A stretch of 64,000 nucleotides of DNA from Trichobilharzia regenti (Eukaryota; Platyhelminthes; Trematoda; Strigeidida; Schistosomatidae): positions 44,179,459 to 44,243,458 of the forward strand of contig OX235265.1 of assembly GCA_944472135.2 (NCBI GenBank), given 5' to 3'. Made by a program: the position numbers and the translations under genes. Every line of letters starts with the position of its first letter. Positions within the stretch are counted from its first letter, which is position 1. The notes under the pieces were generated by a model. The model worked only from the letters and a program-made list of their open reading frames with translations, ran no database searches and had not been told where the DNA came from. This document shows positions 25,225 through 35,400 of the stretch, piece after piece.

Positions 25225-25505
25225 TCAAGTATTGGTTTGTAAGGATTTGGTCGATTGGTTACAGGATTTCATCATGAACTGATATTGGTTAGAGAACCAT
25301 TGGAAAACCTGCCAGGGAGTACTGGGCAGTTGTTTCATCCTAGTTTGGGACTCTTCATCAGTACGCACCCACCAGGGCTCGAACCCGGGACCTACTGTTT
25401 ACCAGGCGAGCTTGTATACCATTAAGCCACTGGTTTTTGAGTTCTAACTTCTGCCAGTTCACGATATGGCGCAACCGCTAGCCAATGTCTTCGGCGTATT
25501 ACAGA
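25225..25505 (-). mobile_element. Hammerhead (Smalpha-like) SINE
   Basis: Minus strand: A/B boxes (GGTTCGAGCCC form), stem I GTACTG/CAGTAC, core ATGAAGA (first C changed), GAAA intact, cleavage GUC changed to GCC. Confidence 0.8.
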
Positions 25506-25549
25506 GGATACCTTACTCTCACATGTGATAAAAATAGATCTCAGTCTTA

Positions 25550-25745
25550 CGTCGGAGTGTCAAAGAGTATAATTCCATTGTGGGTAAAATTTATTTTGAT
25601 AGAGTTTTATAATGTTATACAGTAATATCTACTGAGCAGTAGATTGTGGTCGAAACGTTCTCATCAGTAAATATTACCGTATAACACCCTGAGACTTTAT
25701 CAAAATAAATTTTACCCACAATGAAATTATACCCTACCACAGTAA
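25550..25745. repeat. Foldback of PLE terminus, about 80-bp arms
   Basis: 25556-25634 and 25665-25742 are inverted copies with a 30-bp centre that holds GTCGAAACG. The same terminal family is at 6795 and 42130. Confidence 0.75.
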
Positions 25746-26320
25746 ACGAGTTCTATTCTTATATGAATGGAGAAATTTAACAACATTCTATGCATGCAAT
25801 TATTTGGGTATTCTAACCGTAACAATAACGTGAAAATATCCCTAAAGTAACTGTAATCTAACTCAAATCAAACATACTGTCACCTTTGTTAGGTTAACCT
25901 AACCTTAACTTGTCCTTGGTTTGAAGGGTAACTTAATCTTTCCCAAACGTAAGCTGAAACTTACTAGATATCCTATTTAATAATGTAACACTTCGATTAG
26001 CATATTTTATTGATGATGACAACAACATTATTTGCAGCATTTCACTAACTTGCTCAGTGAGCGTTTCAAGATCATTGGTGCGGTCGCACTCCATTGGGAG
26101 TGAGTGATGCTTAAAGTTTAACTTGGCCGCATATATGTGTGTGATAGGAATGTCAGAATGTGTTACGCAAGTAAATTACACACTTCAAAACAATGCCATC
26201 TTCTTATCGTTTTGTAGAAATCATTAAACACAAATGCTTTTATGCACATATCATACAACAAACACTGAGGCACAATCACTAAAGACGAAAAAAAATTAGT
26301 GGTGCTTTAGCTGAAAGAAG
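25746..26320. other. Unassigned
   Basis: Nothing recognised. Confidence 0.4.
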
Positions 26321-26324
26321 AGAA

Positions 26325-27565
26325 CACGAAGTTTAACAAAAATGGTGATATTTTCGACGATTTCATTTTCAAAAGCAGCTGTACAACCGCATTGAAATAC
26401 ACAAATTTACATACATGCAATTTTTATTCGATTCTACATAATGACGAAGGCGAATAAAAGGTGACAATTACTTTCAACTAGATATGGTTTACGAGAGGCT
26501 TAGAAACAAAAGTTACACAGGATTAGAACGAATTACAAGTGTGTAAAAACAAAATGAGCATGGAAACAAATTTGAAATCATAATTTTCAACTTGAAATGT
26601 AGGTTAGGTGGTGTGAATATAGATTACAAGAGTCGAAAATTGCACAGGATTAAAATATAACTGTACAATAGTTATTTTAAACGAATTACAAATGTGAGCA
26701 GGAAACGCATGGAAAGGCTTAAAATAACTGTTCTTATAACTGAAAAAATGGGATGAATTGCATGAAGACAAAGAAAGAAGAATCACACACACACACATAG
26801 AGAACGAAAGAAAATCAAAAACAAAAACCCATAGGCTAACGGAACATACCGAACTAGGTCCATGGTAGTCGTAGAGGTTGGACTAATTTCTTTTGAAGTA
26901 TTGGTTTTGTAGGGATTTTGTTTTGTTTGATTGTATGGAGGGTTCCATCATGAGCTAACATCAGTTAGAGAACCACCTCCCAGGTTTTCCAGTGGTTCTC
27001 TAACTGATGTTAGCTCATGATGAAATCCTCCATATAATTTCTTTTGAACACACAGCTCCGGCTTTTCGATGCATACTGCGACAGCTTCCGCAGTACAGAA
27101 AAGTCAGAAGCATACTGCCTATGGTAGGCTTCTGTTGACTTTGAAAATGACTTTAAAGGAATCAGCTGAGATGCTGTGAGAAGTGTTGACCAGATGTTTA
27201 GTAATGGCGATTCTCATTGAAAAGGTGTCTTCTGTTTAATTTTCGACTCCTTTAATTTATATTCACACCTCCTAACCTCCATTTCAAGTTGAAAATTATG
27301 ATTTCAAATTTGTTTCCATGCTCATTTTGTTTTTACACACTTGTAATTCGTTCTAATCCTGTGTAACTTTTGTTTCTAAGCCTCTTGTAAACCATATCTA
27401 GTTGAAAATAATTGTCACCTTTTATTCGCCTTCGTCATTATGTAGAATCGAATAAAAATTGTATCTATGTAAATTTGTGTATTTCAATGCGGTTGTACAG
27501 CTGCTTTTGAAAATGAAATCGTCGAAAATATCACCATTTTTGTTAAACTTCGTGTTCTTTTCCTT
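26325..27565 (-). mobile_element. PLE with inverted 3' ends, interrupted by foldback SINE
   Basis: 26332-26640 and 27240-27560 are inverted copies (about 310 bp, a few percent different) of the PLE end at 9425-9740. 26640-26883 and 27049-27235 continue the same PLE as at 9740-10130 on the minus strand, split at 26884-27048 by a 137-bp SINE composite. No open endonuclease survives. Confidence 0.78.
26898..27034. mobile_element. Foldback hammerhead-SINE composite 2 (tails only)
   Basis: 137 bp: a SINE tail inverted against itself (arms around 26940-26973 and 26988-27028). Flanked by a perfect 14-bp duplication TAATTTCTTTTGAA at 26884-26897 and 27035-27048. The related site in the PLE at 9950-9975 has one copy and no insert. 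Confidence 0.88.
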
Positions 27566-27639
27566 CTTTAGTTGGTAGACTAATTTCAAGATATTGTTTC
27601 ACAAACACGCAGGTTATACCATATTGCTATAATTCATTT

Positions 27640-27930
27640 GGTTTCCTGGTGGAACACAGAGCTCTAACAGCACATCTTTATTTCACTGTAGTCCTTTATC
27701 GCTAGCTACATGATAACCCTTAAGCTTTCATCTCTTGCTAACACGATCTCCTCTACGACAACGTCAGACGTTCAACTTGCCAAGTGTACTAATTCACTAG
27801 TCAATCTTATGTCTGGAAGAAGAGGGAAGGTTGGGTGTGAGACTGGCGACCCTAACCCCCCTAGAAAATAAACCCAATCGCTTCAGAAACTTCAACGCCC
27901 CCTGTTCGAAGAAAATCGCGCGATAGAAAT
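27640..27930 (-). mobile_element. RTE tail plus SINE scraps
   Basis: 27650-27760 resembles the RTE 3' end (minus; 'ttcctggtggaacacagagct'). 27805-27910 resembles the middle of the RTE-tailed SINE. Much decayed. Confidence 0.45.
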
Positions 27931-27940
27931 ACCTGAGAAC

Positions 27941-28650
27941 AATTTGTAATCTGAGGATTTCATCATGAGCTGACATTAGTTAGAGAACCATTGAAAAACC
28001 TGCCTGGGAGTACTGGACAGATGTTTTGTTAGCCTAGTTTGGGACTCTTTGGCAGTACGCACCCACCGGGATTCGAACCCAGGACCTTCCGGTTACAAGG
28101 CGAGCTCGTATACCATTAAGCCACTGGGACCCGATCCAATGATCCTTGAATTCTAACTTCTGCCAATTCACGAAATAGCGCGACCGCTAGCCAATGTCTG
28201 AGGAAATCCTCAGACCAATCAAATCCCTACAAACCAACACTTGAATACCAATGAGATGCTCACTGGCGACTGGCCCTATTCAGGCAGGTAGTTACCTGGG
28301 GTTCTAGTAGTTATCTCGTGACCATTAAGATGCAGTGGTGAGGACAAATACTCGCCGAAGACATTGGCTAGCGGTCGCGCTATTTCGTGAATTGGCAGAA
28401 GTTAGAATTCAAGGATCATTGGATCGGGTCCCAGTGGCTTAATGGTATACGAGCTCGCCTTGAAACCGGAAGGTCCTGGGTTCGAATCCCGGTGGGTGCG
28501 TACTGCCAAAGAGTCCCAAACTAGAGCGGAGGAAACAGCTGTCCAGTACTCCCAGGCAGGTTTTCCAATGCTTCTCTAACAAATGTCAGCTCATGATGAA
28601 GTCCTCAGACCAATCAAGTCCCTACAAACCAACACTTGAATTTGTAATCT
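27941..28650. mobile_element. Foldback hammerhead-SINE composite 3
   Basis: Insert 27953-28638 between perfect 12-bp copies AATTTGTAATCT (27941-27952, 28639-28650). Order: minus copy (to about 28196), plus tail fragment (28197-28246), plus full copy (28247-28638). Both hammerhead cores read CCAAAGA, a shared defect, so the two arms are close relatives. Confidence 0.88.
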
Positions 28651-29409: not shown

Positions 29410-32400
29410 CTGAAAAAAAAGTTTTTTTTAAAAAAAAAAGAAAAAGTGCTGATTTATTCAGAGTGTCAATGCACCTATATGAACAATCAAATGATAACCA
29501 CTGAACTATATGACTGTATCAATCCTTTGTCAAACAAATATAAACAATCAATTGTAATGAATGGGACACTGTTCCTGGTGAAATGTCCACTAAGAATGTG
29601 AACACATTGGGGCATAAAAATGGTGTAAAAACACTCGCATTTAGAGCTCAACAAAAATGGTGGTCTTTTCGACGATTTCATTTTCAAAAGCAGCTGTACA
29701 ACCGCATTGAAATACACAAATTTACATTGATACAATTTTTACTCGATTCCACATAATGACGAAGGCGAATAAAAGATGACAATTATTTTCAACCAGATAT
29801 GGTTTACGAGAGGCTTAGAAACAAAATTACACAGGATTAGAACGAATTACAGATATGTACAAAATGAGTATGGAAATAAGTTGTGTTACGAAGGTGATTG
29901 AGTCTTAGAACGATGAGTGATGCTTGAATCTTGAAAAGACGAATGAACCAAGAATTTAGGCTTTATTCATTTTACAATGAAGCCGGAATGGCTTAAACAT
30001 ATAAAGGAAAAAAAGAGTGTTAATAGCGGTAGAGATATGAATATGACTAGATACGTATTATAAGAAAAGTTCACAACATTCACTGCGGCTTGAAAAGGAA
30101 TGAGCCATTATGTCACGCTTCTCTGGTACGCAAATTGTAAGGCCGTACACGTTGTTGTTTTTCCAAAAGAATACGCCCGTTGTTCGTTTCAGTTGTATTT
30201 TCTTCACGAAGAATATTAGGATCAGTGGTCGCATCCCCATTTACTTGTTGCTCAGGAATTGCGTCGCCCTCCGGTATTGAATTTTCAACTTGATCTATAT
30301 CTTCGCCTTTGGGTGCCAGATGATGAAGAGCAACTGTATCTTCACGTCCATTACCGAAGCGAACGTGAGCGAATTGCGGGTTACAATTCAATAGCTCCAC
30401 CTCTTCAACCAGGGGATCGAATTTGGACTGACGAACACTCCGCCGGAGAAGTACTGGTCCTGGTACAGTGAGCCAAGTAGGAAGAGTTGTCCCAGATGTC
30501 GATCTTCGGTTATAGGTAAACAGTCGTTCGTGTGGCGTGGCGTTCGTTGCAGTACAGAGCAAAGATCTGATGGAATGCAAGGCGTCGAGTAGAACAGACT
30601 CCCATTGTGCCGTTGGTAGGCCCCGTGATCTTAATGCTAGAGTGATGGCACGCCAAAGTGTTCCATTGAGGCGCTCGACCTGCCCATTGGCTTGAGGATT
30701 GTATGAGGTAGTACGACTGGTTGCTACGCCTTTCTCCAGAAGAAATGCCCGTAATTCGGTAGACATGAAAGCAGCGCCTCTGTCGGTATGTATGTAAGAA
30801 GGCATACCGAAAATCGAAAACAGTTGGCAAAGGCAATTCATTACCGTTTGAGACGACATGTCGGGGCAGGCGAATGCAAAGGGGAATCGAGAATATTCAT
30901 CGATCAGCGTGAGCAGATAGTGATTGCGGCTAGCTGACGGTAGAGGTCCTTTAAAGTCGATGCTTAACCTTTCAAAAGGTTGGGTTGCTTTTATGAGTTT
31001 GAAATTAGAGGGATTGTAAAATTGAGGCTTTAACTCACAGCATGTCACGCATTTACTGGTTACATTGCGCACCTCGTCAAGGGAGAATGGAAGGTTTCTC
31101 GAGCGTACAAAATGCATCATTCGGACAACTCCAGGATGGCACATAGAGTCATGGAGAAATTTCAAGTCGCACACTGACTGCAAGGAACCGCAGAAACTAC
31201 GGGAAAATGTATCAGCAGCTTGATTATCCCTTCCAGGACGATAAATGATGTCATATTGATAAGGGGATAGCTCAATTCTCCAACGCATTATTTTATCGTT
31301 CTTGATTTTGCCTTTATGAATCTTGTCAAACATGAATGCTACTGAACGTTGATCAGTGACAAGTTTGAAGTGATTTCCGAGAAGGTAATGCTTCCACTTA
31401 CGAATTGCTTCAACCACGGCATAGGCTTCTTTCTCAACCGATGAATGATGTTTCTCACTTCGAGAGAGGCTTCGAGAAAAGAAGGCGACAGGTTTACCAT
31501 TCTGGTTTAATGTAGCTGCAATTGAGACATCTGAAGCATCTGTTTCAACAACAAGGGGTGCTTTCGGATCAACTACCACAACGACTGCACGTTCTAAGTC
31601 GTCTTTCAGTTTGTCAAAAGCATTTCGAGTTTCGATATCAAGAGGGAAAATCCGATTATTTACCAATGGGTGGATTTTATCTGAGAAGCGAGGGATCCAC
31701 TGTGAATAATAAGCAAATAATCCAACGGCCCGTTGTTGAGATTTGATATCTGTGGGTGGTTCTAGATCACGAAGAGGTTTTAGCCGATCGGGATCTGGTT
31801 TAATAACCCCCTTTGAAACTTCATAACCGAGTAATTGTATGCTTCTGCTTGAGATCACACTTTTGGAATCATTAAGGGTTATTCCATAATTGCGTGCTGC
31901 TACCATAAACTTGTTTAGATTTTTGTCGTGTTCCTCCTGAGTTTTGCCGCAGATAGTGACATTGTCAATGTAGGCAAACGTGCTTGTGAGTTGTTCTTTA
32001 CTGATCAATTCATCGATAATGCGTTGAAAACAAGCTACGCCATTGGTAACACCAAAAGGAATTCGGCAAAATTGGTAAAGTTTCCCACAAGCCTCGAAAG
32101 CAGTATATGGTTTATCTTCGTTCCTTAGGGCAATTTGATGATAAGCATTCTTCAGATCAAGAGTGCTGAATATGTCATATTGTGCGATTTTTTCTATCAT
32201 TTCGTCAATCCTAGGTAATGGGTAAGCATCCAGAAAAGTGAATCGATTGATTGTCTGACTATAATCAACTACCATCCTCTTTTTATGGCGTTCGTTTGAC
32301 GTAACAAGAACTTGAGCTCGCCAAGGAGAATTAGAAGGTTCAATAACACCTTCTTGCAGTAACCGGTTGACTTCGGTGGAAATAAAACTTTCATCTTCAC

Positions 32401-35400
32401 GAGAATAACGCCGGGATTTTATCGCGATCGGTTTACAGTCTTTTGAAAGATTTTCAAACAGAGTAGGCAGGTCGACGCGAACACAAGGTAGACCACAGAG
32501 AGAAAAAGGCGGCTTTGATCCCCCAAAAGGAATCTCAATGTGTTTGTGAAGTTTTAAAAAATCATGTCCAAGAAGGACGTCTGCACATAAATTATGAAGA
32601 ATGGAAAATTTGAATAGATCATAAGTGTGGTTTTTATAGCAGATGGATAGAAACAATGTCCTTCAGTATGACTAGTAAGATTCGTACTCGCCATTGTGAT
32701 TCTGTTTCGAGACTTATGGACTTTCCAGTTATACTTACGAACAACTGAGGAAGAGATGTAGCTCTCACTGCTTCCGGTATCCACTAGAGCTTGCATTGAT
32801 TTCCCATTGACAGTAAGCTGCGTAACAGCATCAGTGAGACTTTGAGGTGCTGAAGCCACAACGAGAGATGAAATTATAGAGTTAACTGAAGATGGACCTT
32901 TTTTCGTAGATGGCGCAGACCTGCAAACCTTCTGAAAATGTCCTTGCTTGCCACAAGCTTTGCAAACTGCATCACGGGCGGGGCATTTGGAACGAGGATG
33001 TCTACGATTACCACAGAAAAAGCATTTGGATTCAACGGCAGCAATGGTTGTTTCATTGACGGAGGGTGTGGAATCTGATGAATGAGGTACATCATGTAAA
33101 GAAATGGACGCGCAAGGTGTAACAGGATTGTTGTATGACTGCGATTGTTGATGTGCCATCTCTAGAGCTCGTGCTTGATCGTATGCCGCTTGAAAAGTTA
33201 AAGTACGCTGTTCTAATAGCCTCTGGCGTATCATCGAAGACTGTATACCTGAGATGAATGAATCACGTAGAGATTCGTTACGATGTTCTTCGGCTGTAAC
33301 TGCCCTGAATGAACAATCTGTAGTCAGCGACTTGAGTCGACGAACAAACTGATCCAGATTTTCGCCAGATTCTTGTTTACACGTTGCTAACAAGTGTCGA
33401 GCAAACACTTCGTTGCAAGGCTGCATGTAGAGACTCTTGAGAGTGTCGATAGCTTCTTCGTATGTTTTGCATTCAGAAATGCATTCGTATACAGAAGTAG
33501 AAATATGATTGAAGAGAATATGTAGTTTCGAAGGATTTTCGGATCCCATTGATTCAATGAAGTAGGAAAAAGTCGCAAACCAGTGATCCCACTTCTTGGC
33601 AGCTCCAACTGCGTTAGGTTCTACGTCGAACCGATCAGGTCGGAAAAATCGTTCCATGAATATTGTAAAATGAATAAATTGTTACGAAGGTGATTGAGTC
33701 TTAGAACGATGAGTGATGCTTGAATCTTGAAAAGACGAATGAACCAAGAATTTAGGCTTTATTCATTTTACAATGAAGCCGGAATGGCTTAAACATATAA
33801 AGGAAAAAAAGAGTGTTAATAGCGGTAGAGATATGAATATGACTAGATACGTATTATAAGAAAAGTTCACAACAAGTTGAATAAATAAATAAATGAGGTG
33901 CTCACTGGCGACTGGCCCTATTCAGGTAGGTAGTTACCTGAGGTTTTAGTGATAAGTCGTGACCAGTAGGGTGTAGCATGTCAGGTGTGAGGACAAATAC
34001 TCCCCGAAGACATTGGCTAGGAGTCACGCTATGCAGTGAATTGGCAGAAGTTAGAATTCATAGGCTAGCCATTAGATCGGATCCCAGTGGTTTAATGGTA
34101 TACGAGCTCACCTTGTAATCAGAAGGTCATGGATTCGAGCCCTGGTGGATTCGTACAGATGAAGAGTCCCAAACTAGGCTAACAAAACATCTGTCCAGTA
34201 CTCCCAGGCAGGTTTTTCAATGGTTCTCTAACTAATGTCAGCTAATGATGAAATCCTGTAACTCGTATGTATTCCTTAGAGCTTCTGAACGAACACTGAT
34301 GAATTGGCGATGAGTGTGTGGCATTGCGGTGGGTGCAACTGAAAAGGTTTTGTAGGTAGTATTTTTTTCTGTGTGTGATATCTTTTGCACAAATATTGAA
34401 CAGTGTAGGAATGGATTAAATAACGAAGAGGCGAAATGAGAGATCCTTGAGAAACAACAAAGAAAGCGTGTAAGGAAGACAAAAGAAGCAGCATAAAGAA
34501 AACATGTGCAAAGGGTGATTTCAACTTAAGGTTACTACATTTTGCCATATTTGTGCATCAATTTTCCAATAAACAATTCCCGTAGGAAATACTACCACTA
34601 AGTTCTGATGTTATATATGGTATTGCTGCCTACAACCAAATGATGACCTTATATATTGCAGCCTTCGAAGAGGGAGACATACATAGTTTTTTGAAGGAAT
34701 TCGACGGCGAAGACATTGTGTCTGAAACTCTGCTAAGTGGTCAAACGAAGGCGACTCTCGATAGCGTAGAAGTGAGGAAGAAACCTGGAAGTTTACTGGT
34801 AGTAGAGAAATCGGTTTATTCGCGAACTGATGTAAAGATATGGGGCAATGCATAAACCATACATTGAAATCTCTATTTACACATGTTCTCTGCATTTTGC
34901 TTCAACTGTCTTCCTTTCATGTTTAATATGTTGTTTCACAAGGATGTCTTTAAATATTCCCATTTTTAATATTAGAAGAAGACATATCAGCGAACAATAT
35001 TGTTTTCAATTAGATCTTCTTCAGACTTTACTCTAATTTAAACAGACTTATATACAGAAATTTTTAACCAATGACGGTGATTTTGTGGATCAAATAATAA
35101 TAATAATGTGGTAAATGTTTTGAACGTAGTTAATAACGATGATTATAATGATAACAAAATATTGACAATACGGTTTATGCAGGTGGCGATAAGAATAACA
35201 AGGGTAGTGAGTGATATGTGTATGTATGTAGACAATTCAATAAATAAATTAGGTCAAATCTTAAAAGTTACGTAATACTAAATAAAGATGAAGTGGACAG
35301 ATAATCAGAGTTTAAATAAATATCATAAAAATACCAAGAAGATGGAAAATAAGAAAGCGTGGGAGGGTTTTGAATACTACCTTATTCTTATCGCCACCTT

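Follow-up and report, generated by a model that had tools for sequence, protein, structure and literature searches.

A non-chromodomain Ty3/gypsy-type retrotransposon of Trichobilharzia regenti that probably primes reverse transcription from its own RNA

The window analysed here is a stretch of 64,000 nucleotides from Trichobilharzia regenti (contig OX235265.1, positions 44,179,459 to 44,243,458). It contains one LTR retrotransposon with both LTRs, which runs on the minus strand from 33874 down to 29884. Its features are given below in the 5' to 3' order of the element.

33875..33879, minus strand: target-site duplication CAACT, 5' side, in the flanking sequence
33680..33874, minus strand: 5' LTR, 195 bp, TGTTGTG...CGTAACA; a direct repeat, 100% identical to the 3' LTR
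33794..33799, minus strand: TATA-like box TATATG, from LTR position 76, 25 nt upstream of the 17-mer; recognized by sequence
33758..33774, minus strand: predicted RNA 5' end and self-primer ATTGTAAAATGAATAAA, LTR positions 101-117; putative start site
33758..33763, minus strand: AATAAA poly(A)-signal hexamer, final bases of the 17-mer primer; recognized by sequence
33680..33757, minus strand: U5 side, 78 nt from the primer to the LTR end
33679..33679, minus strand: one-base spacer (A) between the LTR and the primer-binding site
33662..33678, minus strand: putative primer-binding site TTTATTCATTTTACAAT, 17/17 complementary to the primer
32554..33657, minus strand: gag and the start of the protease, 367 aa; Pfam gag-asp_proteas
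30113..32656, minus strand: pol, a frame of 847 aa with the end of the protease (by eye), RT, RNase H, and integrase
29884..30078, minus strand: 3' LTR, 195 bp
29962..29978, minus strand: second copy of the primer sequence, within the 3' LTR; recognized by sequence
29879..29883, minus strand: target-site duplication CAACT, 3' side, in the flanking sequence

Pfam analysis of the window detected the protease, RT, RNase H, and integrase, and gag itself by weak matches. The order gag, protease, RT, RNase H, integrase is that of the Ty3/gypsy (Metaviridae) elements, and extends across two frames; gag and pol are in different frames, and the frame change is located within the protease (by eye). The closest PDB match of the element is the Ty3 Gag-Pol (E 1.1e-58). 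The Gag translation contains two CX2CX4HX4C (CCHC) knuckles, as judged by eye. Rfam gave no match in 29500-34500. The split of the window copy (32554-32656) into a gag frame of 375 aa and a pol frame of 849 aa recurs partly elsewhere in the genome, with frames of 375 or 849 aa (C7:2723294, C6:4024518, C8:154956249, and C1:23955594), and may be common to a small subfamily. The RT catalytic motif of the window pol is Y-I-D-N, not YxDD. Among the best 120 of 2098 relatives, YxDN was found in 90 and YxDD in 22, and 8 were not parsed; such a widespread change of the second aspartate seems unusual. Outside the element, the window contains a repeat in several copies and both orientations (25250-28620 and 33900-34262). 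Within the latter region, the stretch at ~34080-34165 resembles a tRNA-like SINE (by eye).

The original prediction described a self-priming geometry at the 5' end of this element, and its account of the sequence was confirmed at all coordinates. The 17 nt at 33662-33678 are indeed the exact reverse complement of 33758-33774 in the LTR, and the single base 33679 lies between them and the LTR. The TATA-like box, claimed to be about 25 nt before the 17-mer, starts at LTR position 76, with the 17-mer at position 101; it reads TATACG in several other copies. The sequence TTCATTG around LTR position 101 is a partial match to the initiator motif TCAKTY (excerpt of PMC3601003). AATAAA, said to be contained in the 17-mer, constitutes its final six bases. 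The 3' end of the primer was expected to pair next to the LTR, and the final A of the primer does lie opposite the first base of the site.

Shuffled sequences and the remainder of the element were used as chance controls. None of 20000 dinucleotide shuffles of the window LTR gave a 17-nt complement starting 0-4 nt after the LTR; the best was 14 nt. Scanning of the internal region, minus its first 22 positions, showed that none of 3579 start positions reached 11 nt (longest 10). The 17-nt complementarity at this site is far beyond chance.

The predicted leader RNA of the window element, taken from LTR position 101, forms all 17 pairs when folded (-25.8 kcal/mol, z -3.96; none of 200 shuffles does as well). 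The minimum-energy fold pairs the 5' end with the site not only in the window element, but also in L043, a diverged copy from the same genome, and in L059 and L060, two relatives described below. The folds of L059 (z -2.09, 6 of 200 shuffles as good) and L060 (z -2.91, 2 of 200) are only moderately better than the shuffles. The distance from the site to the gag AUG is 4 nt in the window element, 14 nt in L059, and 7 nt in L060. Since only 4 nt (33658-33661) separate the site and the AUG in the window element, the priming helix would close the 5' leader just before the start codon.

In most relatives, a cellular tRNA docks at the position of the primer-binding site. The 3' end of a tRNA is CCA, which needs a TGG in its site. 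In the window element, the 23 nt that follow the LTR contain no TGG, and the first one begins at a distance of 24 nt, within the start of gag; therefore, an ordinary tRNA 3' end cannot prime there. For the matching tRNA that the original prediction had set against self-priming, this result excludes the ordinary CCA-ended form, and that part of the tRNA alternative only. ARAGORN identified no tRNA gene within the window.

The own genome of the element (954 Mb, 548 contigs) was searched for further copies. In the junction search, 370 candidates were found, and all 40 scored junctions were 100% identical to the window. Unlike the window copy, many other copies have no frame change within the protease: an open frame of 1189 aa is given by 49 of 150 gag matches, one with a stop inside the match, compared with 375 aa in the window copy. 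The identical junctions and the long gag frames indicate that this family has moved recently. Among the 38 loci first fetched by similarity, no change was found in either segment wherever it could be aligned. The site failed to align in L010-L012; in L010, whose 5' LTR has been lost, the site carries G, versus A in its own LTR copy.

Co-variation of the two 17-mers among copies had been proposed as a check of the self-priming reading, and 20 diverged copies bear on it. The perfect match is kept in 11 of them (L043, L044, L046, L047, L048, L050, L052, L054, L055, L056, and L058). In L043, a matched double change was found at pair 9, from A:T to C:G (C in the LTR, G in the site), and the pairing is still 17/17. 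Unmatched changes, which the original prediction had named as refuting it, occur in the other nine copies, of which six are distinct (L039-L042, L045, L049, L051, L053, and L057). L039-L042, one duplicated broken copy, combine C with T at pair 9, lacking the matching G, and contain one further mismatch; L049 combines A with G there, lacking the matching C. L051 lacks a base on each side and has one mismatch, L053 and L057 have two mismatches and one mismatch, respectively, and L045 matches only the last 12 primer bases, because its upstream LTR sequence differs. Since the similarity-fetched loci are unchanged in both segments wherever these align, the unmatched changes were read as decay after insertion. 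Such decay predicts unmatched changes; thus, the within-family test is weak by itself.

Pair 9 was compared over 64 loci, with 57 A/T, 4 C/T, 2 C/G, and 1 A/G. L018 and L090 represent one locus, as do L026 and L092, and L039-L042 count as one copy. Over the resulting 59 distinct loci, there are 55 A/T, 1 C/T, 2 C/G, and 1 A/G (association p ~0.005, with relatedness ignored). The window copy, L010-L012 and L076-L077 (5' LTR lost), L071-L075 (no full junction), and L061-L070 (fetched around the RT) stand outside this table. In a search with L043 as the query, 40 of 373 candidates were scored: L043 itself at 100%, and all other rows at 95%; six of the latter were read, and have A/T. Over 18 diverged loci, 9 of 306 cells are changed in the primer and 5 of 306 in the site; the corresponding counts are 111 of 1783 for the sequence preceding the primer, 51 of 1404 for the sequence following it, and 81 of 2844 for gag. 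In these loci, neither primer nor site stands out clearly as better conserved than the remainder. Within the genome, there is little covariation, as almost all copies read belong to a single young family. A query with the Trichobilharzia RT piece found the same family and decayed copies in this genome. Other families may exist there, since 125 of 6900 candidates were scored.

Several arrangements of the copies were also observed. Among the 125 scored RT matches, 29 end at the same query residue (219 of 320), with frames of 633, 610, 531 aa, and others; this is possibly a pol-truncated subfamily that multiplied and was mobilized in trans. Gag matches spaced by 3796-3797 bp, the length of LTR plus internal region, were found at C8:129107316-129115411, C2:32456992-32461292, and C8:115742421-115746721, and are apparently head-to-tail arrays sharing LTRs. 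At C6:29887459-29898012 (L010-L012 and L076-L077), an array with a period of 5025 keeps gag and the primer-binding site, with other DNA in place of the 5' LTR; base 9 of the site varies between its units. Eight gag matches of one broken old copy, all with the same stops, lie within 216 kb at C7:11566810-11782364, which looks like a segmental duplication.

Homologues were searched more widely with the RT part, and 2098 proteins were identified. The best 120 of these have 60-70% identity, and their named sources include Clonorchis, Trichobilharzia, Paragonimus, Sparganum, Biomphalaria, Plakobranchus, and Actinostola; one is in a bin named Lactococcus. Many of these 120 are ~1200 aa, on ~4 kb contigs. 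Two distant relatives were found by scanning contigs of prokaryote genomes, both in metagenome bins: L059 (JAAESD010000556.1, 58% protein identity) and L060 (JABSRZ010000027.1, 56%); these contigs are presumably contaminants in bacterial bins. L059, L060, and G001 C201 are gypsy-type elements in bins labelled as bacteria ('bacterium', Hyphomicrobiales). The repeated ends of L059 and L060 are 145 and 155 bp, as expected if the assembly path was circular or multicopy. Searches with two alignments gave no relatives in the viral contigs; there were none in the phages, and the plasmid search gave one weak Wolbachia match. The cross-family comparison at the DNA level comprises three families (window, L059, and L060). 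For L059 and L060, the LTR boundaries were placed by eye on the basis of TGT...ACA, with no flanking duplications.

L059 has, at the settings used, a single inverted repeat in 3949 bases, TATTGTTGATTAAA/TTTAATCAACAATA, of 14 nt with a 13-nt core. Its second arm starts one base (A) past the LTR end (...CTACA), and the core ends 14 nt before the gag AUG. None of 20000 LTR shuffles gave a match as long, and none of 3347 other internal positions reached 11 nt. L060 contains a perfect 13-nt pair, TAATGTAATAAAA/TTTTATTACATTA, inside a 22-nt inverted repeat of 82% identity, the longer of two reported; the other (14 nt, 93%) lies within the coding region. In L060, too, a single base (T) separates the LTR end (...CTACA) from the site, and the AUG follows 7 nt after the site. 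This match is the weakest, with 7 of 20000 LTR shuffles as long, and none of 3704 other internal positions reached 11 nt.

The three families share the same arrangement. The site starts exactly one base after the LTR in all three, and the primers all end at a poly(A)-type hexamer: AATAAA in the window element, ATTAAA in L059, and AATAAA one base before the end in L060. The bases beyond the duplex are unpaired, with G opposite the spacer A in the window element and L059, and T opposite T in L060. The primer lengths are 17 (window), 13-14 (L059), and 13 nt (L060); thus, the length changes jointly on both sides. No clear TATA box was seen by eye upstream of the primer in L059 or L060, and MAFFT gave no sensible alignment of the three leaders. 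Across the three families, primer and site vary in sequence and length, yet stay complementary and in the same place, and L043 adds a double change within the family; however, 9 of the 20 diverged copies carry uncompensated differences. The cross-family covariation lends good support to the self-priming interpretation.

The window element was compared with known systems. As in the Tf1/sushi group (Tf1, Tf2, Tj1, and sushi-ichi), its predicted RNA 5' end is complementary to a site just after the 5' LTR, and such a segment was found in all three families (17, 14, and 13 nt). In Tf1, the duplex comprises the initial 11 bases of the RNA, and cleavage by RNase H falls between bases 11 and 12 (excerpt of PMC7175516); self-priming from the RNA 5' end is also described for Tj1 (excerpt of PMC4600332). 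Compared with this group, the duplex is longer here (17 nt, and 13-14 in L059 and L060), the primer ends at the poly(A) hexamer, and the chromodomain at the integrase end is missing. Its absence had been claimed from the window sequence, and Pfam bears this out, with no Chromo match in the window pol or the L059 piece. PF00385 was likewise absent among the best 120 of 2098 relatives, some of which are fragments. Tf1 has a single gag-pol frame. Because the chromodomain is absent, membership of the Tf1/sushi group is not claimed; by analogy, the element would work like Tf1.

Other self-primers have been predicted in the Tcn1 clade of the chromoviruses and the TAR lineage of the plant Ty1/copia elements (excerpt of PMC6317226), including Tcn1 of Cryptococcus (excerpt of PMC7175516). 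These belong to other hosts and lineages than the window element: Tcn1-like elements carry a chromodomain (excerpt of PMC2864245), and TAR is a copia lineage. The CsRn1-like elements of trematodes and insects (CsRn1, PwRn1, Boudicca, and Saci-3) are also gypsy-type and known from flukes. Their shared features are a site for tRNA-Trp, duplications of 4 bp, and a CHCC motif in Gag (excerpt of PMC2582038); the missing TGG within 23 nt, the 5-bp CAACT (window copy only), and the CCHC knuckles rule out this identity. The Troyka elements, also animal LTR elements with unusual features, have CG...CG ends and 3-bp duplications (excerpt of PMC12440569), which are ruled out by the TG...CA ends and the 5-bp duplication of the window element.

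By analogy with Tf1, the following mechanism is proposed. Transcription would begin at LTR position 101 or close to it. The RNA would fold back across the 78-nt U5 side, so that its first 17 nt pair with the site that follows the LTR. The RNase H of the element may then cut where the duplex ends, after ...AATAAA, and the resulting 3'-OH would lie one base from the LTR. Since the final A of the primer is paired with the first base of the site, extension from this 3'-OH would copy the spacer and then U5. In LTR elements, plus-strand synthesis copies the site from the attached primer, so each new copy should have a site that mirrors the parental LTR. If the new primer-binding site is copied from the self-primer in this way, LTR substitutions would be passed on to the site. 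Such re-copying would keep both segments complementary, and would explain the matched double change in L043.

Three alternatives to self-priming were considered. The pairing might have another role in the RNA, as a 5' hairpin or as a 5'-3' contact made by the primer copy of the 3' LTR, acting in packaging, dimerisation, or the control of translation, with some other RNA as the primer. The duplex lies directly before the gag AUG (4, 14, and 7 nt), where it could hinder scanning, and the 3' LTR does carry the primer sequence. However, the paired site is exactly at the usual position of the primer-binding site in three families, no TGG is near in the window element, and the primer 3' end abuts the LTR with the polarity required for copying U5; this alternative seems unlikely. 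An internal tRNA fragment or other small cellular RNA might also act as the primer, with the LTR complement being secondary. Predicted half-tRNA sites have been described in some Ty1/copia lineages (excerpt of PMC6317226), but the site here is AT-rich, and its sequence and length vary by family while remaining complementary to the own LTR. This makes priming by such a fragment very improbable.

Both segments are AT-rich, and the L060 match is no better than the shuffles in 7 of 20000 cases; AT-rich stretches could thus be complementary by accident, or as a by-product of repeated AATAAA-like motifs. Such an origin has a negligible probability, given the same position in three families and the fact that none of 10630 other internal positions, the three families combined, reached 11 nt. 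The best reading is Tf1-type self-priming in a non-chromodomain animal gypsy clade, with a primer that ends at the poly(A) hexamer. The window element, a young Ty3/gypsy-type element, probably self-primes its reverse transcription from its own RNA in the manner of Tf1, with the start, cut, and extension as predicted above.

A broader proposal is more tentative, with slightly less than an even chance of being right. A large non-chromodomain gypsy clade from flatworms, molluscs, and cnidarians might self-prime as a whole. Its primer would be proximal to the cap, re-templated in each cycle with LTR changes mirrored in the site, and would end at the poly(A) signal; it would also close the leader directly upstream of the gag AUG, and this single helix could in this way decide whether the RNA is translated or reverse transcribed.

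In the literature excerpts seen, self-priming is described for the Tf1/sushi chromoviruses, several fungal elements, the Tcn1 relatives, and one plant copia lineage. Among the titles and opening abstract lines of the open-licence literature searched, none describes self-priming in a flatworm or other non-chromodomain animal gypsy element. If a non-chromodomain animal clade has the same geometry, the mechanism either arose repeatedly or predates the chromovirus split; hairpin self-priming has been proposed to be ancestral (excerpt of PMC3601003). Self-primed reverse transcription would then become testable in invertebrates, and these families would document, in a natural setting, the ways in which such elements maintain the complementarity of primer and site.
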